From assembly GCF_014191545.1 (NCBI RefSeq), contig NZ_AP023361.1:2384501-2448500 (forward strand): a stretch of 64,000 nucleotides of DNA, given 5' to 3'. Source of the DNA: Terrihabitans soli. Its GTDB lineage: Bacteria; Pseudomonadota; Alphaproteobacteria; Rhizobiales; Methylopilaceae. Position 1 is the stretch's first letter. The number at the start of each line of letters is the position of its first letter. Shown one piece after another: positions 20,693 to 58,372 of the stretch. A program made the translations under genes and the position numbers. The notes beneath the pieces were generated by a model. That model was not told the DNA's origin. It did not search any database and saw only the letters and a program-made list of their open reading frames with translations.

Positions 20693-21685
20693 ATGCCCGT
20701 AGATAATACGAGCCGACCGCGTCTATTCGACCATCAGGTTGCTCGGAAGCCCAACTATTATCCGTGGACCGAGTCCATCAAGGAAGCCATGTGGCACAAT
20801 CCTTGGACCGCGTTCAAATTCAAGTTCGATACCGACGTCACTGATTTCCGTCTGAACCTCTCGGACGAAGAGCGGCAAGTTATTGTCCGCTGTCTGGCCG
20901 CAATCGCCCAGATCGAAGTCGCCGTGAAGACGTTCTGGTCCCGCCTCGGCGACAACCTCCCCCACCCCTCAATCGCAGGTCTCGGCACCGTCATGGCCGG
21001 GATCGAAGAAATCCATAACCACGCTTACGAACGGCTGCTCGACAAGCTTGGCCTCGACGACATCCAGGCAGGTCTTCTTGACGTGCCCGCCATCGCAGGC
21101 CGCGTATCGTATCTCAACAAGCACAACACCAAGGTCTATGGAGACGATCGTAAGCAGTACATCTACTCGCTGATCCTCTTCACGCTGTTCGTCGAGAACG
21201 TCAGCCTCTTCAGCCAGTTTTACATCATCCTCTGGTTCAACCGGTTCGAGAACCGTCTGAAGGATGCCGCCCAGCAGGTGAAATACACCCGCAACGAGGA
21301 ACTGCTGCACGCCCTCGCCGGCATGAAGATCATCAACACGCTGCGCGAAGAGTATCCGGAACTCTTCGACGAGGACCTCGAAGCCAAAATCTGCGAGGAA
21401 ACCGAAGTCGCGTTTCAAGCAGAAGCCGCGTTAATCGATTGGATGGTGGGCGACTACGACCGGCCCCGTCTCAATGCCTCACTTCTGAAATCTTATGTAG
21501 CTCAGCGTCTCAATGAGAGCCTGATCGGCATCGGCTACGCGCCCCAGTTCGACGTCTCCGAAGAGGACAAGCAGGCGACGTTCTGGATGACCGAGGGGCT
21601 GCTCGCGCCGCCCAAGGTCGACTTCTTCCATTCCGAGCCCACCGGCTACTCCGAGGGCGATATGCCCGTTGATGACGATTTCTGA
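20693..21685 (+). CDS. nrdB: Ribonucleotide reductase class I small subunit
   Basis: 330 aa ferritin-like radical subunit. Metal ligands: Glu in IAQIEVAV near residue 67, EEIH near 104, Glu in FVENVS near 166, EELLH near 203. The Tyr in EEIHNHAY sits four residues after the His, the place of the radical tyrosine in Escherichia coli NrdB. The first ligand appears to be Glu instead of Asp. The C-terminus ends VDDDF, the tail that docks on NrdA. Product feeds dNTP supply. Translation start lies next to an SD-masking hairpin. Confidence 0.92.
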   Translation: MPVDNTSRPRLFDHQVARKPNYYPWTESIKEAMWHNPWTAFKFKFDTDVTDFRLNLSDEERQVIVRCLAAIAQIEVAVKTFWSRLGDNLPHPSIAGLGTVMAGIEEIHNHAYERLLDKLGLDDIQAGLLDVPAIAGRVSYLNKHNTKVYGDDRKQYIYSLILFTLFVENVSLFSQFYIILWFNRFENRLKDAAQQVKYTRNEELLHALAGMKIINTLREEYPELFDEDLEAKICEETEVAFQAEAALIDWMVGDYDRPRLNASLLKSYVAQRLNESLIGIGYAPQFDVSEEDKQATFWMTEGLLAPPKVDFFHSEPTGYSEGDMPVDDDF

Positions 21686-23387
21686 GGACCTGCAAAAGAT
21701 GCGCGCCGACTACGCTTACCTGAATGAAGACTCGTTGAAGACCCTCTCTCGTGGCTATTTGGCCGAGGGCATCCCCGACAGCGAATTGAAGGCCGCGGCG
21801 ATCCTCCGCAGTCAGGAAATCGTCAATACCGCAGAGAAGATTCTAGGCCGGCCCTTGCCCGCCGTTCGTCTTGGCATCCGTCGGGGTTGGGTCTCCCCGG
21901 CCTCGCCGGTATGGGCAAACTTCGGTCTGCCGCGTGGCCTGCCGATCTCCTGCAACAACTCACACTTCGACGACACTACAGCGTCCATCATCTTCAAAAC
22001 CGCCGAGATCGGGATGATGACCAAGTTCGGTGCTGGTACGTCGGCGTGGCTCGGTGAGCTTCGCCCGGAAGGTTCACCGATCACGGGCGGCGGGAAGTCG
22101 CTAGGCCCGCTTCACTTCGCCCGGCTCATTCAGGAACAGGTTGGCGTTATCAGTCAGGCCAACACTCGCCGCGGCAATGCCGCGATCTATCTCGGCATCC
22201 GGCACCCGGACATTCACGAGTGGCTCAAGATCAAGGATAAGGGCCATCCGATCGAGCATCTGTCTTTCGGCGTCTGCATCGACGACGAGTGGATGGAGGA
22301 ATTTCTTGCGGAAGGCAAAGGCGGTGAAAAGCGGCTCCTTATGGCGAAGATCGTCACCAAGCGGCGGGCGAAGGGCTATCCCTACATCTTCTTCTCTGGC
22401 AATGCCAACAAGGCACGTCCTGACGTCCTGAAGCGGCTCGGTATCGAGATCAAGGCGACGAACCTCTGCACGGAGATCATGCTTCCGTCGACGACGGACG
22501 AGAGCTTCGTGTGCGATCTATCATCGGTCAACTTGCTCTATTACGATGAGTGGAAGGACACTCGTCTCGTCGAAGAAATGGTCTATCTGCTTGACGCGGT
22601 CATGACCGAGTACGTCGAGAAGATCGAGAACCTGGACGATGCTCAGGCTCGTCTCCTCATGAACTCACCGCTGAAGTTTGCCAAACGCTGGCGCGCAGTC
22701 GGCCTTGGTACGCTTGGTTATCACTCCATGCTTCAGTCGAAGATGATCCCCTTCGAGTCCGAAGAAGCGCGGGCGTTGAACATTGAGGTCCACAAGCTCG
22801 TCGGCGAACGGTCGGTCGCCGCCTCTCGCGAGATGGCGGTGATCTACGGCGAACCGGAAGGAATGAAAGGCACCGGGCTGCGTCACCTGTGCGTCAACGC
22901 GATCGCTCCTACCCGTAGCTCATCGGTCATCCTCGGTCAGGTTTCTCAGGGCATCGAGCCGATCACCGGCAATGTGTTCGAGAACGATAACGCCAAGGGC
23001 GTCTTCACGGACACGAACCAGATTCTGAAAGCCTTCCTCTTTTCCCGAGGTCTCGACACGACCAAGGTCTGGGAGGAAATCCTTCGCGCCGGCGGCTCTG
23101 TGCAGAACCTCTGCTACCTGACGGATGATGAGAAGGCGGTCTTCAAGACCTTCATCGAGATCGACCAGAAGGAAGTTATCCGGCAGGCGGCAGATCGTCA
23201 GCCGTTCGTCGACCAAGGCCAGTCTCTGAACCTGACGATCGCTCCGACGGTGTCCATGAGAGACAACGTCGATCTGATCGTGACGGCATGGAAGCTCGGC
23301 GTGAAGTCGCTCTACTACCACAACGGCCTCAACAAGGCCCAGGAACTGGCCCGTGAAATGTCCTCCTGCCAAGCATGTGAAGCATGA
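21672..23387 (+). CDS. nrdA: Ribonucleotide reductase class I large subunit, compact form
   Basis: 571 aa from the ATG at 21672, overlapping nrdB by 14 nt. Active-site pieces: SCNN near residue 97, ATNLCTEIM with radical Cys near 266 and catalytic Glu two later, and a C-terminal CQAC redox pair for re-reduction. There is no N-terminal ATP-cone, and the chain is about 190 residues shorter than E. coli NrdA, so dATP feedback inhibition at the activity site is probably absent. This suits a phage wanting uncontrolled dNTP supply. Confidence 0.93.
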   Translation: MTISEDLQKMRADYAYLNEDSLKTLSRGYLAEGIPDSELKAAAILRSQEIVNTAEKILGRPLPAVRLGIRRGWVSPASPVWANFGLPRGLPISCNNSHFDDTTASIIFKTAEIGMMTKFGAGTSAWLGELRPEGSPITGGGKSLGPLHFARLIQEQVGVISQANTRRGNAAIYLGIRHPDIHEWLKIKDKGHPIEHLSFGVCIDDEWMEEFLAEGKGGEKRLLMAKIVTKRRAKGYPYIFFSGNANKARPDVLKRLGIEIKATNLCTEIMLPSTTDESFVCDLSSVNLLYYDEWKDTRLVEEMVYLLDAVMTEYVEKIENLDDAQARLLMNSPLKFAKRWRAVGLGTLGYHSMLQSKMIPFESEEARALNIEVHKLVGERSVAASREMAVIYGEPEGMKGTGLRHLCVNAIAPTRSSSVILGQVSQGIEPITGNVFENDNAKGVFTDTNQILKAFLFSRGLDTTKVWEEILRAGGSVQNLCYLTDDEKAVFKTFIEIDQKEVIRQAADRQPFVDQGQSLNLTIAPTVSMRDNVDLIVTAWKLGVKSLYYHNGLNKAQELAREMSSCQACEA

Positions 23388-23602
23388 CCTTCGAGATCAT
23401 CACCAAGCCCGGCTGCATCTATTGCGATATGGCCAAGGCCCTGCTCGCGCCTTACGGCTACAAGGAAACGGTCTGTTCCACTCCGGAGCAGATCGCGGCC
23501 TTTAAGGCCGAGGGCTGGCGAAGCTTCCCCCAGATCTTCGAGAACGGGCTCCCCATCGGAGGCTACACGGAACTCGAAGCCTACCTGGAATTCGTGTTTT
23601 AA
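23384..23602 (+). CDS. Glutaredoxin / NrdH-like redoxin
   Basis: 72 aa; ATG overlaps the nrdA stop. Thioredoxin-fold start FEIITKPGCIYCDMAKALL gives the CxxC active site (residues 11-14), then a cis-Pro in SFPQIF and GG in IGGYTEL, all standard for small glutaredoxins. It should reduce the C-terminal CxxC pair of the phage NrdA. Terminator follows immediately. Confidence 0.9.
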   Translation: MTFEIITKPGCIYCDMAKALLAPYGYKETVCSTPEQIAAFKAEGWRSFPQIFENGLPIGGYTELEAYLEFVF

Positions 23603-23800: not shown

Positions 23801-23877
23801 GCCGCCATAGCTCAGTTGGTTAGAGCGCCGCATTGTGGATGCGGAGGTCCCCCGTTCGAGCCGGGGTGGCGGTACCA
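23801..23877 (+). tRNA. tRNA-His (GTG)
   Basis: Full cloverleaf: 7-bp acceptor (GCCGCCA with TGGCGGT, the first pair G-U), D arm with CTCAGTTGGTTAGAG, anticodon stem CCGCA/TGCGG with loop TTGTGGA (anticodon GTG), T arm GTTCGAG, discriminator A73 and encoded CCA. There is no G at -1 and no C73, as in the atypical tRNA-His of many Alphaproteobacteria. The gene lies between converging early and late units, and the PhoH stop follows its last base directly. Confidence 0.95.
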
Positions 23878-24807: not shown

Positions 24808-24934
24808 CGTTAGCCTCCTTCTGCTTTACGCGCTCCTGAGCCCGCCCCACTTCCTTCATCTGCTCTTCCTTCAACCAAGACAGGAAGGAATTGCAGAACT
24901 GAAAGAAGGCCAGGGCGAGCTTCAGAAGTTTCAT
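24710..24934 (-). CDS. Rz-like i-spanin candidate
   Basis: 74 aa: N-terminal hydrophobic segment (LKLALAFFQFCNSFLSWL) then a charged helical region (KEEQMKEVGRAQERVKQKE) and a Pro-rich end. The anchor plus periplasmic helix and the overlapping Rz1-like lipoprotein frame argue for an i-spanin. ATG overlaps the holin stop (TAATG). Sequence homology to known Rz is not evident, so the call is by architecture. Confidence 0.68.
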   Translation of the reverse strand: MKLLKLALAFFQFCNSFLSWLKEEQMKEVGRAQERVKQKEANDAVVAKVDEARRADPVVPPAGGVLPDPDCRDC

Positions 24935-25143
24935 TACGCAGTGACCTTGGAGGCCTTGTACTTGCGGTACAGACCATAGAGGTAGGTGCCGTAGGTCACG
25001 ATCGAACCGAGCGCGCCAATAACGGTTTCGGTCTGAGTCAGGGCCGAAGCCGCGTCGTCAGCCGAGAGAACGCCCTTTGCCGTCAGGATGCCGAAGCCGA
25101 ACTGCAGCGCATGACGAGCAAACGGAATGAACAGAGACAACAT
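24934..25143 (-). CDS. Holin-like small membrane protein
   Basis: 69 aa with a hydrophobic start (LSLFIPFARHALQFGFGILTA) and a second segment (VIGALGSIVTYGTYLYGLY), ending in a basic KYKASK tail. It follows the endolysin gene directly and precedes the spanins. Two membrane segments and the position suit a holin or pinholin. No family signature proved. Confidence 0.68.
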   Translation of the reverse strand: MLSLFIPFARHALQFGFGILTAKGVLSADDAASALTQTETVIGALGSIVTYGTYLYGLYRKYKASKVTA

Positions 25144-25145
25144 TT

Positions 25146-25940
25146 TTATGCTCCTAAACGCACAAACTGGAAGTGCATCCAGTCGTAGTTACGGGCACGG
25201 CCGAGAGAGACCGCCCCTTCTTCCTCCACAAACCCCCAGAACGGAAGGAACTCAGGGCGAGCGAGAGTTGCGCGCTCCTTCGTCCATTTGAGCTGGTTGT
25301 TCGAGGGATCGATGTCGACCGCAGCTGCAAAGGCGTGGACCGACAAAGAGCTGCCGCCCCGCATTTTGCGGTTGTTGAAACAGCCGCCGAAGCGGTCGAG
25401 ACGCAGATTGCGAATCTGGTCGATGCCGTAATGCGCGAGCGTCTTCGAGAAGATTCGCTTGAGAGGTTCAGCGACCTTCTTGTTGCAGGTGATCTTCGTG
25501 ACCTGAGCTTTTAGATCCCAAGCCAGAACCATCGGATACGCCGTATCGATCAGCGTGTGGTTCTCGCCAGGAGCCCCAAAGAATGCGGCCGCGCCCGACT
25601 GGACCGGCCACTTCTCGGTGCCCGCCCGCATCGGCGGTTCTTTGTCTCGCCAAGTCGTGACGGCCTTTTCGGCCTTCGGACCTTTCTGACGAGCTGCCCA
25701 AACCTCGAGCGCATATCGAGTCTGCGGACCAATGCGGCCGTCGACTGCGCCGGCATCGATACCTTCGATGTGGAGCAACGCCTGGGTTGCGGCGACGAGG
25801 AGACGGGTCTTCACCCAAGCCTTGTCGACACCGGGCAGTAGCGCGATCGCGGCGGCGGTCTTGGGACCCCACTTGCCGTCGAGGTCGCCTTTGTAGAAAC
25901 CTGCTTTAGCAAGCAGGGTCTGGATTTCGAGAAGCGTCAT
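25146..25940 (-). CDS. Endolysin: peptidoglycan-binding domains plus M15 D,D-peptidase
   Basis: 264 aa. Residues about 1-90 hold two peptidoglycan-binding-like repeats (LLAKAGFYKGDLDGKWGPKT; GAVDGRIGPQTRYALEVW). The C-terminal half is an M15/VanY-type zinc peptidase: SVHAFAAAVDID near 205 supplies His and Asp, and DWMHFQF near 255 the last His. It should cleave peptide stems or cross-links. No signal peptide, so release needs the holin next door. Confidence 0.88.
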   Translation of the reverse strand: MTLLEIQTLLAKAGFYKGDLDGKWGPKTAAAIALLPGVDKAWVKTRLLVAATQALLHIEGIDAGAVDGRIGPQTRYALEVWAARQKGPKAEKAVTTWRDKEPPMRAGTEKWPVQSGAAAFFGAPGENHTLIDTAYPMVLAWDLKAQVTKITCNKKVAEPLKRIFSKTLAHYGIDQIRNLRLDRFGGCFNNRKMRGGSSLSVHAFAAAVDIDPSNNQLKWTKERATLARPEFLPFWGFVEEEGAVSLGRARNYDWMHFQFVRLGA

Positions 25941-51470: not shown

Positions 51471-52667
51471 TTAGCCGCCGAAGTTGTAGATCGAACGGGT
51501 GTCACCGAACGGGAGGCGGTAACCGGAGTTCTCCGTCTTCACGTAGGTGATCGACTGGTTCTGGATCGACCGCTCGGACTCTTCGATCAGAGAACCGGCT
51601 TCGATCAGCTCTTCGATCGTGTCGCCACGCGAATAGCCGACGAGCTGGTTGTCCGGAACGCCGCTCGAAAGAGCGAAGTTGATCGTGCCCTGCAGGAGCG
51701 GGACACCACGGATCTGGAAGCCCATGTTGGCCAGCTGCTCGGCATCCGTGGCAACCTTATCCGACGTCGGAACGCCGAACATGATCAACCACTGAATGTA
51801 AGCGTCCCAGTTGCCGAGGACGGTGTCGATCGGCGTGCCGGCCTTCGCGCGGGCAATGAGCCAGCGGACGAGGTGCTGATACGAGATCTTACCGTTGGTG
51901 GCGTTGGTGCCGACCGCAGTGTTGAAGGACGACTGAGCCACAACGCCGGCCGCGGCGTGAACGCCGTCACCGTTGATGAGAACTTCCGTCGCCGCCCAAA
52001 CCTTCGAGCGTTCGGTTTCACGGGCCATACGGATCGCGTACGGGGTCAGCAAGTCGAGGCGAGCCCGACGGCTGAATTCGTACGAGGTACGATAACCCGA
52101 ACCATGCTTGAAGAACTGAACCGAGTTCTGCGTGGTGCGGATCGTCTTCACGCGGACGCGGGACAGTTCCGCGACGGCGTGCGAGCCCTGATAGTCGGCT
52201 TCCTTATCATCGATAACCGTCGAGATCAGCTCAACACCGGCGACGGTACGCGAAGTACCGACGATGGACTTGACGTTCTCAAAGGTATCCTGGCGGTATT
52301 TCCAGCGAACCATATCATCCACGACCTCTGGGAAGAGGGCACGGGTGCCGGGGAACGTCTGGAAGGTGTCCGACGCGAGGTCGAGCACCACACCCTGTTC
52401 GAAGTTGTCGTTGACCGGGAGGCCGAGGAACGACAGAGCGGCTTCATAGCCACCGAGGAGACCCTGGCTGTCCGCGAACTGGTCGGGGTTATCCGAACCG
52501 CGGACGTCGATACCAAGGGTCAGGAAGTCGCGCAGACCGAGACCGAACTCCTTCGCTTCCGCGACGAGTTTGATCGCCGCTTCAGCAGAAGCGGCCGGGC
52601 TGTCGCTGCGGAGCGGGGCAAGTTCCTGAACCTTGCGGCGCTTGAGCTGATGCAGTGGACGAGACAT
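51471..52667 (-). CDS. Major capsid protein
   Basis: 398 aa, HK97-fold type. After an N-terminal part of about 100 aa (LGIDVRGSDNPDQFADSQGL), domains expected for E-loop and P/A domains appear: FFKHGSGYRTSYEFSRRARL, ARETERSKVWAATEVLINGD, TVLGNWDAYIQWLIMFGVPT, GFQIRGVPLLQGTINFALSS, ending with DNQLVGYSRGDTIEELIEAG. Order after a protease/scaffold and decoration gene is standard. Followed by a hairpin. Confidence 0.85.
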   Translation of the reverse strand: MSRPLHQLKRRKVQELAPLRSDSPAASAEAAIKLVAEAKEFGLGLRDFLTLGIDVRGSDNPDQFADSQGLLGGYEAALSFLGLPVNDNFEQGVVLDLASDTFQTFPGTRALFPEVVDDMVRWKYRQDTFENVKSIVGTSRTVAGVELISTVIDDKEADYQGSHAVAELSRVRVKTIRTTQNSVQFFKHGSGYRTSYEFSRRARLDLLTPYAIRMARETERSKVWAATEVLINGDGVHAAAGVVAQSSFNTAVGTNATNGKISYQHLVRWLIARAKAGTPIDTVLGNWDAYIQWLIMFGVPTSDKVATDAEQLANMGFQIRGVPLLQGTINFALSSGVPDNQLVGYSRGDTIEELIEAGSLIEESERSIQNQSITYVKTENSGYRLPFGDTRSIYNFGG

Positions 52668-53120: not shown

Positions 53121-54260
53121 TTACCGAGGACGGTTGGTGCGGAACGCCGACACACCCTTCGGGGTGTCAGGGGTTTTGAGAGAGTCGGCCGGCTTGGCAC
53201 GACCGCCAGCGACGAGAGCCGCTGCCAGCCCCTCGGTCGTTTCGGTGATGAGGGAGACGATCCCCTGAATATCTGCCGGAACCTCGGCATCGACTTTACC
53301 GCTGGCCGTAAGGACTTTCTGAGCAACACCCTTCAGGGCTTCCGTCGCGGCAGTCAGGTCAGCCTGGGTCGACTCGATCGTGGCGTTCGCCTCGGTGAGC
53401 TTCGCCGCAACATCATCCGCGGTGGCGGCTTCGAGCTTCGTCCGAACATCGGCCAGTTCGGCGGTCAGCGTTTCGATCTGGGCATTCGCCGACGTGGCTT
53501 CCGCCTGCGAAAGAGCCAGCTTGGACGTCTTGTCCGTCAGCTGGGTCATCAGTTTTTCAAAATCCACGGTGGGACTCCCTTCAGCTACTGCCGTCAGCAC
53601 AAGGACATTCGGGTCCAAGCCGCTGGCGGCGAGGCGCTGGAAATTTGCGGACCCGAAATGAGATTGTTCGCGCGAGACGATCTTCGCCTTCTGGGCGCCG
53701 CCACGATGGACGAGAGACATCTCGAAAAATTCTGAGAGACCAACGAGGCGCGCGAACACACCGTCCTGACCAAGCTTGTTGCCGTCCGGGTCGGTGCCGG
53801 TCCAAAGATGCTCGAACGTCGCGTCAGGGCCGTAGAAGTCGAAACCGGAGGCGCTCGAGAGCAGCTTCTTGGACAGGATCGAGACCGAGACCTGATCAAC
53901 TGTCCCGCGTTCGATCTGACCGATCAGATCCGCGTGCGTTGGGTCGACGAAAAAGAGAGTGCGAAGTTCGCTGTAGTCCCCGCGGTCGATGACCTCGCCG
54001 TGGAATACCCGGCCAACCGGGAGCACTTCGGTGTTGTGCATGATCTGCACAGGACGGCTTTCAGCGGCGAGCGCCGCGGCCATCTCAACAAGCAGATTCC
54101 GCTCGGCTTGAGCGTTCAAGAACAGAGTGTGACGTTTGCGAATTGGGAGCGTGTTAAAAGCCGCTGCCTCGAACACCACAACGTCGTCGACATTTACATC
54201 GTCACCGACGGCGGCTTTTAGCTTCGCAATGATTTCTGCCGTTTTGGCAATCTGCTTCAT
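53121..54260 (-). CDS. Prohead protease fused to scaffold
   Basis: 379 aa. N-terminal domain (about 1-200) has HNTEVLPVGRVFHGEVIDRG and VDQVSVSILSKKLLSS, suitable for the His and Ser of a phage prohead serine protease. Residues about 240-340 form a long Ala/Glu/Thr-rich coiled coil (TKLEAATADDVAAKLTEANA) as scaffold. The tail ends TNRPR. One gene with both functions just before decoration and capsid is common. Confidence 0.78.
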   Translation of the reverse strand: MKQIAKTAEIIAKLKAAVGDDVNVDDVVVFEAAAFNTLPIRKRHTLFLNAQAERNLLVEMAAALAAESRPVQIMHNTEVLPVGRVFHGEVIDRGDYSELRTLFFVDPTHADLIGQIERGTVDQVSVSILSKKLLSSASGFDFYGPDATFEHLWTGTDPDGNKLGQDGVFARLVGLSEFFEMSLVHRGGAQKAKIVSREQSHFGSANFQRLAASGLDPNVLVLTAVAEGSPTVDFEKLMTQLTDKTSKLALSQAEATSANAQIETLTAELADVRTKLEAATADDVAAKLTEANATIESTQADLTAATEALKGVAQKVLTASGKVDAEVPADIQGIVSLITETTEGLAAALVAGGRAKPADSLKTPDTPKGVSAFRTNRPR

Positions 54261-54335: not shown

Positions 54336-54734
54336 TCAGGCCTTATAGGTGCCGAAAAACACATCCCAGATCGGGGACGTGACCCCGTAATTATACCGCC
54401 ACTGACGATGGTGAATGTCATGGGCGGTTGTCAGCTCGCCGAAGCTTTCCGGGTGATGATGCATCCCTTCGTGCACCAAGACGTACGCGCCATAGCCGAC
54501 TAGATGACCGGCCACGAATCCGATGCCGATCGTACCCGCCAAAAGGTAGCCGACTGTGAGGGCTGCGGTTGCGATGATACCCGCCGCCGGATATGGGATA
54601 CCCATGCCGTCGAGCGGATTTCGGTGATGAATCGCGTGATACCGAGGGAACCATCCATGTAGGATGAACCGGTGCACCAGATACTCGGCCAAGGTCCAGG
54701 AAACGAGACCAACGAGCCCCGCTACGAAGCTCAT
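54336..54734 (-). CDS. Fatty-acid hydroxylase/sterol desaturase superfamily protein
   Basis: 132 aa integral membrane di-iron-type enzyme. All histidine boxes are present: HRFILH (21-26), HAIHH (33-37), HEGMHHH (88-94), HDIHH (105-109), with hydrophobic helices near 3-18 and 45-85, and the characteristic YGVTSPIWDVFFGT end. The family hydroxylates or desaturates lipids, for example fatty acids, sterols, carotenoids, or ornithine lipid (OlsE) in rhizobia. Between portal and protease genes it looks like an auxiliary metabolic gene, coupled by ATGA to its upstream partner. Substrate unknown. Confidence 0.85.
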   Translation of the reverse strand: MSFVAGLVGLVSWTLAEYLVHRFILHGWFPRYHAIHHRNPLDGMGIPYPAAGIIATAALTVGYLLAGTIGIGFVAGHLVGYGAYVLVHEGMHHHPESFGELTTAHDIHHRQWRYNYGVTSPIWDVFFGTYKA

Positions 54735-54823
54735 TTGTATCCAAGTCCCAATAGGATAAGTGCTGCCACCACCCCGGCGCTGCCGACGAATTCGAGGACC
54801 GTGGCGAGCTGTTGTCGCGTCAC
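54731..54823 (-). CDS. Membrane microprotein coupled to the hydroxylase gene
   Basis: A 30-aa frame from a GTG at 54823, overlapping the preceding stop (GTGA), with a single hydrophobic helix (LEFVGSAGVVAALILLGLGY). Its own stop overlaps the hydroxylase ATG (ATGA). Likely translated in chain with these two. Support is architectural only. Confidence 0.5.
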   Translation of the reverse strand: MTRQQLATVLEFVGSAGVVAALILLGLGYK

Positions 54824-55047
54824 GAGATTACCCCCTCGCCGCGCTTGTTCGGCACCCAAGGGCGATCCTCGATTATTCGCTTGTTCCCCTGCACGCTTTC
54901 CATGCGAAGGATCAGACCCGACCCCTTGCAATCTCCGCAGGTATCGTAGCCGAAGGTCATCTCGGCAGCGTCAGTCCAGCTCTCGCCGCCGGCGCCTTCG
55001 CATCCAGGACAAAGATGAATTTCACCACCGTCTCTCAGCGCGCCCAT
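54820..55047 (-). CDS. DnaJ-type zinc-finger small protein
   Basis: 75 aa with two CxxCxGxG-like elements: CPGCEGAGG near residue 13 and CGDCKGSG near 36, which could bind one zinc as half of a DnaJ cysteine-rich domain. AGGAG lies 8 nt before the ATG. Overlaps the membrane microprotein by 4 nt. It may help fold a partner; role unknown. Confidence 0.65.
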   Translation of the reverse strand: MGALRDGGEIHLCPGCEGAGGESWTDAAEMTFGYDTCGDCKGSGLILRMESVQGNKRIIEDRPWVPNKRGEGVIS

Positions 55048-55058
55048 TATTCGATCTC

Positions 55059-55124
55059 CTATAGGTGTGCGATCTCGTCGCCTGATTCCTCATCGATCTC
55101 GTAAGTGTCCCAAGGAGGTGTCAT
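55059..55124 (-). CDS. Possible 21-aa acidic microprotein
   Basis: The ATG overlaps the portal stop (TAATG) and the frame MTPPWDTYEIDEESGDEIAH ends just before the SD of the next gene. It may be a real coupled microprotein or only a bridge that keeps ribosomes on the mRNA. Low certainty. Confidence 0.3.
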   Translation of the reverse strand: MTPPWDTYEIDEESGDEIAHL

Positions 55125-56632
55125 TACGGCCCACCCTGATCCATAAGGAGAAGAGCTGCCTTGATCGCCTTCGAACGACTGGCGTTCGGATTTCCCTCCG
55201 GGGAGAGACTTCGACCCAGAGGATCGCTGTTTGAGGTCGGTCCCTTGCCGCCCCCCGCCTCGCCCCCCGCCGGTGCGGGCGTGAGGAAGCCAGTACCCGA
55301 AAGTTCCGGGGCGCCGTCGGGCGGAAGACGCCCATACATAAGGAGATGATATTCTTCGTCCGTGATCAGGCCATCGGACAGGTCTTGCCGAAGACGCTGA
55401 GATTTGAGCATCAGCTGCGGCTCGAGTTCGAGATCCGGTCGCAGCTCAGCATGTCGGAAGGTAACTTCCGCCCAACCCTGAAATCCGTTCGAGTGAAGAA
55501 TGAAATTGCCGACCTTGGTCAGAATGTCAGCGATCGGCTCATTCAACTCGTCAGCATTCATCGCCGCGATACGGGCTTCGACCGACGAGGTGTTCACACC
55601 ACTCTCGCCGCGGCCGATGACCGTCGACATGGTCTTCAGGCCGGCCTGGTTCTGGGCGTTGAGGGTCTGAATCACCGAGGAGATGTCGACCGCCATGCCG
55701 GGCTGACGGTCATTGATGATTTTGGGTTCTACAGAGTCGAAATGGACGATGGCCTGATCGGCGCGCATCGTGGCGAAGGAAGACTGAATCTCCGCCAGTC
55801 GAGAGGCCATGTAACTCTTGAGCTGGACCTGATCGGCCTTGATGTTGGCCGGAGCGTTCTTGAGGAGGACCTCCTCGACGACTTTGACGTCCAGCCGCGG
55901 ATAGCCGGTGACCTGCATGATCCGATAGAGGTCATTGATGACCTGCTGACGCGCAGCGATCGTGTTGATTGCCGCGACGAAATAGGACCAGCTGTAGATG
56001 TTGGTCGGGTCTCGGCGGAAGTGCGAGACGAAGAAGGTCGGAATGTCGAGGTTGATCTCGTCGTTCGAACCCTCGGGCTTCTGGATCGGCTTATACTCTC
56101 CGGACTTCTTCTCTCGCCACTCGACATCAGCCATATCGACCTGTCGAAGCTCCGACGGCGCGAGCTTATCGCTCAGCACCAACTCAACACCGACTGACCC
56201 CCGAAGGAGAGCCATATATCGGAGGTTCTCACAAACCTGCTTCATGCTCGGCTTCAGTTGGAAACCAAGGCTGTAGTCGGTGACCGTCGAGAGCAATTTG
56301 AATGCGGTCTGGAGTTGCTTGGTCGCCTCGCGGTCAATTTGACCATCGACGGTGCGAGCGAGAAGCAGCATCTCCGTATTGGACATCGTCAGGTAGGCAT
56401 TGAGCGCCGCCGAGACATCAGGGTCCGTCTTGAACAGTTCCTGTAGAAGAACCCGGCTATCGTTAGCCTGACGAGACGAGAAAAGGTCGGTGAGGTGTTC
56501 CCGATATTGCGGGACGGTCAATACGCCATCGTTGGCGTTCGGATCAAAGGTTGCAGAAAGGCCTACCCCGCCCTTCTTTCCCTTCTTTTTAGGTAGGACC
56601 CAAGTAAAAAGGGATCCAAAGTTTAGGGCCAC
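55124..56632 (-). CDS. Portal protein
   Basis: 502 aa, second after terminase. DPDVSAALNAYLTMSNTEML, GSVGVELVLSDKLAPSELRQ, PTFFVSHFRRDPTNIYSWSY, helix YMASRLAEIQSSFATMRADQ and NAQNQAGLKTMSTVIGRGES fit phage portal proteins (wing, stem and clip regions). C-terminus is disordered (Gly/Pro/Ser rich). It forms the dodecameric DNA channel. Confidence 0.85.
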   Translation of the reverse strand: MALNFGSLFTWVLPKKKGKKGGVGLSATFDPNANDGVLTVPQYREHLTDLFSSRQANDSRVLLQELFKTDPDVSAALNAYLTMSNTEMLLLARTVDGQIDREATKQLQTAFKLLSTVTDYSLGFQLKPSMKQVCENLRYMALLRGSVGVELVLSDKLAPSELRQVDMADVEWREKKSGEYKPIQKPEGSNDEINLDIPTFFVSHFRRDPTNIYSWSYFVAAINTIAARQQVINDLYRIMQVTGYPRLDVKVVEEVLLKNAPANIKADQVQLKSYMASRLAEIQSSFATMRADQAIVHFDSVEPKIINDRQPGMAVDISSVIQTLNAQNQAGLKTMSTVIGRGESGVNTSSVEARIAAMNADELNEPIADILTKVGNFILHSNGFQGWAEVTFRHAELRPDLELEPQLMLKSQRLRQDLSDGLITDEEYHLLMYGRLPPDGAPELSGTGFLTPAPAGGEAGGGKGPTSNSDPLGRSLSPEGNPNASRSKAIKAALLLMDQGGP

Positions 56633-56635
56633 CGA

Positions 56636-58372
56636 TTAAAAGCCTTCTCGATGCAATCCGATTGATATGGGTTTCCCGCTTGGGCGTTTTAGGCCCAGGT
56701 GCGACTCGTTATGAGTCGGAATGTTCACTGTAATGACGCTGGACATAATGCGGTTCTCGGTCAGATCCTGAAAATCCTGAATTGTTTTCAGCTTGAACGC
56801 CGCCTTGAGGAAGCCGAGTGCGTGGAAGAAATGGTCGTTCCCAGTGAGCTTTTGCCATTTGGCCGGCTCCTCGGCCGACTCAATGCGGACCATGTCCTGC
56901 AAGTGCTCGATGATCAGCCGCTCGTACTGGGTATAACCGGTGAAAGCCCACTGCTTCTTACGGATGGACGACACCACGGCGTCGATGATCTGTGTCCGAT
57001 TGACCTGGACGTGGCTAAATGCTTCGAACTCGTCGAGCACTAGATTCATGGAAGCTGCACCGCGGTACTCGACCGGAGCAATCCTGCCGTGGGTCGAATC
57101 TCGCAACTCGTTGGCCGTCGGAGTGTAGGGATGGCGATCGAGAGCGCCGGTTACGATCGTGTATTGTTCACCGAGCTGCTTGATCCGCTCAACGAGCTTG
57201 TCGGCGTGGATCTGTTCCCAGCCAAAGACAACATCGGGCGTGCCGTAAACAAGATGGCAGATCTGACCGACGTCGATCCCGATACCAATTTCCTGCGGAA
57301 GAGTATCCGGCTTCGAGGCGCCGGCCATTACCGCTCGGACATCGGCCTCGCTCAGACGAGCGTTCGAGTCGTTGTAGGGTTCCCCGAGAACTGTGTTGTA
57401 CCAGCCGCGTAGATTTTCCTGCTGTTTCATCTTCAGCAGCTGGCCGACGATATAAGGAACCGTCAGTCGAGGGGTAGCAAATGGCCGTACCCGGTAGCCA
57501 CGGGCTCGCCGGCTGGGGAATTTGGCCACCCACTGGCGCAGAGAGGGATTGCCCAGGTCGAGCGGCGCCGAACACTTCTCACATCGCACATACGCTTCTT
57601 CGAGAGCAATTTTCGCTGCCATATCGACGTCGATCTCCGAAAGATCGTTCAAATCGGAGCTTAAACCCGGCAAACAGATGAATTTCGGCGTGAAAACCGG
57701 GTCGTTCCAGTGATTGCAGCGGGTGCAGCGGCAAAGATATTCGTGCTGATCGGAGGCCTTGAACTTCGCGTCGATACCAAATCCGACGAATGTTGGAGTC
57801 GAAAATCCCTGCGTGATCTTGAAATCGGAGTTCTGGAGACGCGACTGGAAGAGACCGAGCATTGCTGGGTCCGACAAGTCGACTTCATCATGCACAAGCA
57901 TGTCGGCTGAGATCGAAGTGGCGTCACCTTCGGTGTTGCCGGTGAAATATCCGAAGGACTGGTCGATTTGGTAGAGGCCCATCGACCGGATGGGTTTTTC
58001 AATGCCGCCCTGGTTAAAGACCGGCTCGCTGTCCATCAATGGTTTGAAGCGGGTCTGAGAGACGCGCTTGTACATCTTGTCATTCGGAAGGGTGAAGATG
58101 CCGGTGACGGCGGTGTTTCTCTTCAGGAACCCGCCATATTTGCGGAGCTGAACTTCGGTAAGGCCGATCTGGGAGCACTTGATGCACGACAGGTCGGGGT
58201 GCATGTCATCGGCGATCTGTCTTTGGAATTCGTACTCATGAAACGAGAACGGTCGCTTCTTCAGCGTTGTGTTTTTCTCGATCCAGTTCGACATGGACAT
58301 AGATGTCCGGTCATCGGAAAACTTCGAATCGAGGAGGTTTGAGAAATCCGAGAGAAAAGCATTTCCGGACAC
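56636..58372 (-). CDS. Terminase large subunit (GpA-like)
   Basis: 578 aa. ATPase: degenerate Walker A CSQIGLTE at 66-73 and Walker B DMLVHDEVD at 157-165. A zinc-binding insert lies near 210-265 (CRCTRCNHW ... CEKCSAPLD). The RNase H-like nuclease has IGIGIDVGQ near 365 and later acidic residues. This layout is the lambda GpA/terminase group. It cuts and packages DNA. First gene of the leftward late operon, divergent from the gene at 58494. Confidence 0.9.
   Translation of the reverse strand: MSGNAFLSDFSNLLDSKFSDDRTSMSMSNWIEKNTTLKKRPFSFHEYEFQRQIADDMHPDLSCIKCSQIGLTEVQLRKYGGFLKRNTAVTGIFTLPNDKMYKRVSQTRFKPLMDSEPVFNQGGIEKPIRSMGLYQIDQSFGYFTGNTEGDATSISADMLVHDEVDLSDPAMLGLFQSRLQNSDFKITQGFSTPTFVGFGIDAKFKASDQHEYLCRCTRCNHWNDPVFTPKFICLPGLSSDLNDLSEIDVDMAAKIALEEAYVRCEKCSAPLDLGNPSLRQWVAKFPSRRARGYRVRPFATPRLTVPYIVGQLLKMKQQENLRGWYNTVLGEPYNDSNARLSEADVRAVMAGASKPDTLPQEIGIGIDVGQICHLVYGTPDVVFGWEQIHADKLVERIKQLGEQYTIVTGALDRHPYTPTANELRDSTHGRIAPVEYRGAASMNLVLDEFEAFSHVQVNRTQIIDAVVSSIRKKQWAFTGYTQYERLIIEHLQDMVRIESAEEPAKWQKLTGNDHFFHALGFLKAAFKLKTIQDFQDLTENRIMSSVITVNIPTHNESHLGLKRPSGKPISIGLHREGF

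Follow-up and report, generated by a model that had tools for sequence, protein, structure and literature searches.

A prophage of Terrihabitans soli carries, inside its head module, a gene for a 132-aa protein (54336 to 54734, minus strand) that on sequence evidence is well supported as a fatty acid hydroxylase (FAH) of the PF04116 type, and relatives of this gene in viral contigs repeatedly adjoin endolysin genes. Positions refer to the window, the 64,000-nt stretch of DNA that was analyzed, which corresponds to bases 2384501-2448500 of the 3.11 Mb single-contig genome. We tentatively propose, with a confidence somewhat short of even, that the gene encodes a late membrane-lipid hydroxylase that may act on the host envelope around lysis. 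The enzyme class in this proposal comes from homology; the late action, the lipid substrate and the role in lysis are suggested by the position of the gene and by its family.

The match of the 132-aa protein to PF04116 reached 71.6 bits (curated cut-off 31, E 1.1e-19) and covered positions 2-132 of the 132-position profile. Because this cut-off is passed, the histidine boxes of the protein are not a chance pattern. The boxes are H21-X4-H26, H33-X2-H36-H37, H88-X3-H92 and H105-X2-H108-H109; the third reads HX3HHH in the window protein, and of its histidines only H88 and H92 are kept without exception among the relatives. All ten histidines are conserved in 13 of 13 sequences of a first alignment and in 21 of 21 phage members of a larger one, and in a sequence alignment they pair with the histidines of Scs7p, the yeast ceramide fatty acid hydroxylase. 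In the account of FA2H given in PMC10002949, the four histidine motifs make up the di-metal centre, and functional myxobacterial relatives are described there as well. Scs7p was the sole PDB sequence match at E <= 1, with E-values of 2.7e-7 for the single-sequence query and 5.6e-32 for a 13-row profile. Scans of the protein against the PHROG and NCBIfam collections gave no match at E <= 1.

The predicted fold points in the same direction. An AlphaFold2 model computed from 13 sequences had a mean pLDDT of 89.6, and Foldseek placed it on Scs7p with a TM score of 0.84 on the query and an E-value of just 2.5e-3. Alignment with VIA to residues 224-373 of 4zr0 included all 132 residues (Z 11.9, rmsd 2.2, 33% identity), while the next row was an unrelated structure with Z 6.1, so that Scs7p stands out clearly as the best fold match. 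For helical proteins, the fold tool cautions, a Z below about 13 can reflect a common arrangement; since the value of 11.9 falls below this level, we take the sequence and fold evidence jointly. The preliminary description, made from the letters of the DNA, had claimed a four-box histidine pattern for this ORF, including the HX3HHH form of the third box, and had called for a profile search against PF04116 and a structure prediction. The claim was correct in both respects, the search returned a match above the cut-off rather than no family hit, and the predicted model was confident for the core.

In the comparison with the four-helix membrane domain of Scs7p, the model aligns from residue 224 onward only. 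A helix at the N-terminus, present in 19 of the 21 aligned phage members, is absent from the window protein and from that of contig L069. This shortness relative to 19 of 21 members would fit a truncated, inactive passenger, as would a long branch in the tree, and the window copy is without a near relative for a selection test. Its reading frame is open, the ten histidines are retained and the core of the model is confident, all of which argue against such decay, and we consider an inactive passenger improbable. The relatives are under purifying selection, as indicated by dN/dS values of 0.11-0.37 across 40 non-identical within-cluster pairs, which comprise near relatives only and are not independent, 36 of them coming from one cluster. 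In a tree of 54 rows, the phage label requires 4 changes as compared to a shuffle mean of 18.3, in a sample that is biased because profiles of these same proteins were used to retrieve the cellular rows. The window hydroxylase is sister to that of L052 (support 100/83) on a branch of length 1.7, and its position is unsure because this branch is so long. Two rows labeled cellular, L079 and L081, share about 74% identity with a phage member, and L079 lies at no distance from the phage row L062; these two may be prophages.

The family was assembled mainly from predicted viral contigs. A tblastn search with the window hydroxylase in 50,697 phage records gave no match at E 0.1, in a type of search that detects portal proteins down to 26% identity. 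Five further phage members had no match in the same records (E 0.01 or E 0.001), so that 6 of the 28 hydroxylase proteins were covered, the window protein included, and the hydroxylase part of four members matched no family when scanned against the PHROGs. Scans of IMG/VR with successively larger profiles led from one true relative to 42 contigs, which are predicted viral sequences rather than isolates of known quality. After removal of L076 (the same protein as L075) and of the fragment L078, the remaining 40 proteins formed 27 clusters at 70% identity, or 28 with the window protein added. All 21 members that were scanned matched PF04116. One candidate, L002, was excluded, its match lying in what appears by eye to be a head-protein-like ORF. 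In the open-licence PMC literature, no description of a phage fatty acid hydroxylase was found among the matches listed. The family may have escaped notice so far since it is carried by prophages and uncultured phages.

An annotated endolysin gene was located within about 1.1 kb of the hydroxylase gene in 11 of the 28 clusters, namely L052 (GH108), L053, L056 (which shares a contig with L040), L062 (counted through its members L039 and L065), L069 (which shares a contig with L036, and where the best match of the neighbour is a tail lysozyme family), L114 (a call that rests on a peptidoglycan-binding domain), L116 (GH25), L117, L121 (M15), L123 and L125 (M15); Pfam returned nothing at E 0.01 for the endolysins in L117, L123 and L062, of which the first two were counted by PHROG. 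With chance rates of 5%, 8% and 15%, which are assumed rather than measured, the probability of finding at least 11 of 28 clusters beside an endolysin is 5e-8, 5e-6 and 1.5e-3, respectively. Three clusters are in head modules: the window, L057 (scaffold/major head protein) and L074 (terminase/portal). The link to late and lysis genes that had been suggested for the window gene is strengthened by these counts. At least five clusters appear by eye to lie among early DNA genes (L001, L061, L095, L108 and L128), with a PF10991 ssDNA-binding protein as the neighbour in L108, and a further seven (L058, L059, L060, L072, L073, L112 and L115) fit none of these settings clearly and could include some host flanks. 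Within the L062 cluster, the hydroxylase gene of L068 adjoins a terminase gene rather than an endolysin gene. The upstream genes of L055 and of L063/L077, regarded by eye as possible endolysins, matched neither Pfam nor PHROG families and were left uncounted; against the PDB, that of L077 had no match better than E 0.56.

The spacing of these genes is tight in several clusters. With the start codons that we chose, the start of the hydroxylase gene overlaps the stop of a lysis or holin-like gene in 5 of the 27 viral representatives, the partner being the endolysin gene in L069, L116, L123 and L125 and a holin-like gene in L052. The latter scored 18.1 bits against PF11351, under the cut-off of 24.8, and shares an ATGA with the hydroxylase gene, as seen at the corresponding junction in the window. 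Gaps of 2-5 nt precede the hydroxylase start in L053, L055, L114 and L117. As a separate observation, a small gene with an RlpA-like lytic transglycosylase domain (PF03330; L039:7550-7888) precedes the hydroxylase gene in several phages of the L062 cluster. A phrog_6098 protein of unknown function is fused to the hydroxylase in L114 (4854-5717) and directly follows it in L117 (5384-5704). In both cases it has a motif that, by eye, resembles phospholipase A2. A phospholipase-like reading was dropped, as Pfam supported it for neither protein and L117 had no PDB match.

In the reading that we favor, the gene product would be a small di-metal hydroxylase of the Scs7p/FA2H type, integral to the membrane and probably expressed alongside the late genes for virion and lysis. 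The enzyme would hydroxylate an acyl chain on one of the host's membrane lipids, drawing on O2 and on electrons presumably supplied by host carriers. The packing of the envelope would then be altered shortly before or during lysis, and the timing or the completeness of release might be helped. Phages breach the membrane with holins and spanins; if our reading is true, a lipid-altering enzyme coupled repeatedly to an endolysin gene would be a new step in lysis, and the small single-gene members let the lipid question be tested directly. A broader proposal, which we regard as rather doubtful, is that small O2-dependent lipid hydroxylases form an unrecognized lysis-associated class of phage genes besides holin, endolysin and spanin. 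Members of this class would be endolysin-coupled in many uncultured phages and would remodel the membrane near lysis, with release possibly tied to oxygen, and the window member would be a relocated, minimal form accompanied by two additional small partners. Late modules commonly carry cargo at their ends, and the main arguments against a role in lysis are that all sorts of cargo gather there and that the window copy lies outside the lysis cassette.

Among characterized proteins, the fatty acid 2-hydroxylases Scs7p and FA2H (PDB 4zr0, 4zr1) share with the window protein a core fold over 132 residues and the ten histidines. The window protein differs from them in the lack of a cytochrome b5 domain, in having fewer helices within its 132 aa and in being phage-borne. 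Viral fatty acid desaturases (vFAD) of cyanophages and Arctic viruses are likewise virus-carried membrane enzymes, and have been proposed to modify host lipids (PMC7300359, PMC8224337). However, they belong to a different family, Pfam keeping desaturases (PF00487) and hydroxylases (PF04116) separate within one clan, according to PMC10598087. A coupling of vFAD to lysis is not part of the descriptions considered from PMC7300359 and PMC8224337, and by comparison with these descriptions the genetic link to lysis genes is tighter in the relatives of the window hydroxylase. Proteins of PF04116 are also reported in giant viruses of eukaryotes, in the Mimiviridae and Phycodnaviridae (PMC10598087); these proteins of eukaryotic viruses gave fold matches to the window protein that were weak (best E 0.13) and weaker than that of Scs7p. 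PF04116 covers several reactions, the review PMC10598087 naming carotene hydroxylases and sterol desaturases, so the window enzyme could instead hydroxylate a carotenoid or another isoprenoid, or act as a desaturase. The sole PDB sequence match being Scs7p speaks against another substrate or reaction, and this is a weak argument since the PDB has few PF04116 members. We nevertheless judge such a substrate or reaction unlikely.

The hydroxylase gene is located in a prophage of about 82.5 kb bounded by 21-bp direct repeats, of which the left copy is at 538 to 558 and the right copy lies outside the window, at 82993-83013 on the window scale, within the 3' end of a tyrosine integrase ORF. The upstream flank of the hydroxylase region is the portal gene (55124 to 56632, minus strand; phrog_3753, E 2.7e-108), followed by the large terminase subunit (56636 to 58372, minus strand; phrog_675, E 3.5e-113), and the major head protein is encoded at 51471 to 52667 (minus strand; phrog_3922, E 2.8e-72). 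The downstream flank is a conserved head-region gene (53121 to 54260, minus strand) with a match to phrog_37797, a family of unknown function (E 2.1e-69). Its similarity to the head-protease family phrog_976 was limited to residues 236-316 (E 0.0021), and many coiled-coil families match this segment too. The presence of a PF04116-type enzyme in a head module, as noted in the preliminary description, is thus real, and of the flanks named there, portal and protease, the portal is confirmed and the protease is not. The endolysin (25146 to 25940, minus strand; phrog_17001, E 1.1e-84) and the holin (24934 to 25143, minus strand; PF23987, 51.3 bits, cut-off 27) of the prophage itself are about 28 kb away from the hydroxylase gene, which thus lies outside the lysis cassette; two ORFs that look spanin-like by eye, with no Pfam match, adjoin the endolysin and holin genes.

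A tblastn search of phage records with the portal protein related the prophage to phages JWF and Seuss. Achromobacter phage JWF, Caulobacter phage Seuss and Xylophilus phage Lumi resemble the window in head gene order, their portals are 51-53% identical to that of the window, and their genomes (81.5, 85.1 and 82.8 kb, respectively) are similar in length to the prophage. Unlike the window, they have a portal-side gap without the hydroxylase gene and its two small upstream partners, and these records contained no hydroxylase match. Altogether 11 related loci were compared, eight viral contigs and the three named phages, with 5-6 kb flanks inspected, or less at contig ends. The gap holds nothing convincing in JWF, Lumi, L009, L011 and L015, and one gene on the opposite strand in Seuss. 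In L008, L010, L012 and L014 it contains a large gene that appears by eye to be tail-fibre-like or collagen-like, preceded in L008, L012 and L014 by a gene of 114-119 aa, and the contig of L013 ends after a 118-aa gene in the gap. A portal-side gap with large tail-fibre-like genes is an unusual cargo site within a head module. Because the content of the gap differs among the 11 loci, the three genes of the window look like cargo that occupies a variable site beside the portal gene, outside the lysis cassette.

Cargo of this kind could serve lysogenic conversion or exclusion, with the hydroxylase altering a lipid of the surface or membrane, such as lipid A or an ornithine lipid, in the lysogen or infected cell; stress tolerance would then change or other phages be blocked, and the enzyme would have no role in lysis. 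Several hydroxylase clusters outside late modules fit this alternative, as does the finding that no other PF04116 gene is present in the host genome. Between 54100 and 55300, no promoter-like site was found as compared to 0.6 expected by chance, and thus there is no sign that the three genes have a promoter of their own, which speaks weakly against conversion; terminator-like sites in the same interval numbered 3 versus 1.2 expected. The stop/start overlaps with endolysin genes in four clusters are also at odds with a conversion function, and we hold it to be rather unlikely. Among the genomes surveyed, the portal occurred in 1 of 297 from the order and the hydroxylase gene in 1 of 18 from the family, in both cases in the source genome only.

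Upstream of the hydroxylase gene are an ORF of 30 aa (54731 to 54823, minus strand), with a GTG start and a single hydrophobic helix, and a gene for a 75-aa protein (54820 to 55047, minus strand). The stop of the 75-aa gene and the start of the 30-aa ORF share GTGA, and the stop of the latter and the ATG of the hydroxylase gene share ATGA; the chaining of the three genes by 4-nt overlaps is therefore as described previously, and translational coupling across them is plausible from these junctions. With a 19-residue Kyte-Doolittle peak of 2.26, the 30-aa ORF is hydrophobic; it gave no Pfam or NCBIfam match and only weak PHROG matches (E 0.11 and 0.54). The 75-aa protein contains two CXXCXGXG motifs, seen by eye, where DnaJ has four. 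It scored 20.7 bits against the DnaJ cysteine-rich domain PF00684, under the cut-off of 32.7, and matched phrog_8027, a family whose function is not known (E 8.8e-5). A search with it in the phage records gave no match at E 0.01, and one short viral match was seen (53% over 30 residues). The two small partners had been described as a membrane protein and a DnaJ-type zinc protein; the former is indeed hydrophobic, and the DnaJ assignment of the latter is below threshold.

The idea that the three genes form a conserved unit was rejected, as neither the hydroxylase nor the 75-aa protein was found near the portal in any of the 11 related loci. A heuristic for an ORF of 20-60 aa with a single helix, ending at the hydroxylase start, also found none in the 27 viral cluster representatives; outside the representatives, L065 carries a hydrophobic ORF of 54 aa that lies 54 nt upstream of its hydroxylase gene. 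The preliminary description had named absence of the block from all relatives, together with frame decay, as evidence against its proposal. In the loci examined the block is indeed absent, without decay, and this does not apply to the hydroxylase, which recurs.

The 30-aa ORF could also be the split-off first membrane helix of the hydroxylase, the three genes then encoding a two-piece enzyme and a zinc protein. Such a split would account for the ORF stopping exactly where the hydroxylase starts and for the helix found at that place in 19 of 21 aligned members, and with the larger family and a standard background only 17 of 2,000 letter shuffles of the ORF equalled its helix score. However, with the first family 110 of 2,000 shuffles reached the score, and with a membrane background the numbers rose to 597 (first family) and 212 (larger family) of 2,000. 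Control helices scored at least as high as the ORF in 30 of 372 cases with the first family (67 of 372 with the membrane background) and in 27 of 480 with the larger family (83 of 480), the last two counts being too high because some of the controls are true hydroxylase helices. In addition, L069 is without the first helix and yet has no such small partner. The two tests gave no distinction between the ORF and ordinary helices, and we consider a split enzyme very improbable.

Further genes of note were observed in the prophage. Within the repeat-bounded stretch, genes for the small and large chains of ribonucleotide reductase and for a glutaredoxin are found at 20693-23602, followed by a tRNA-His gene at 23801-23877. 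Three tRNA-like matches with an odd two-base anticodon reading are located in its right-hand part (L031:3161-5311).
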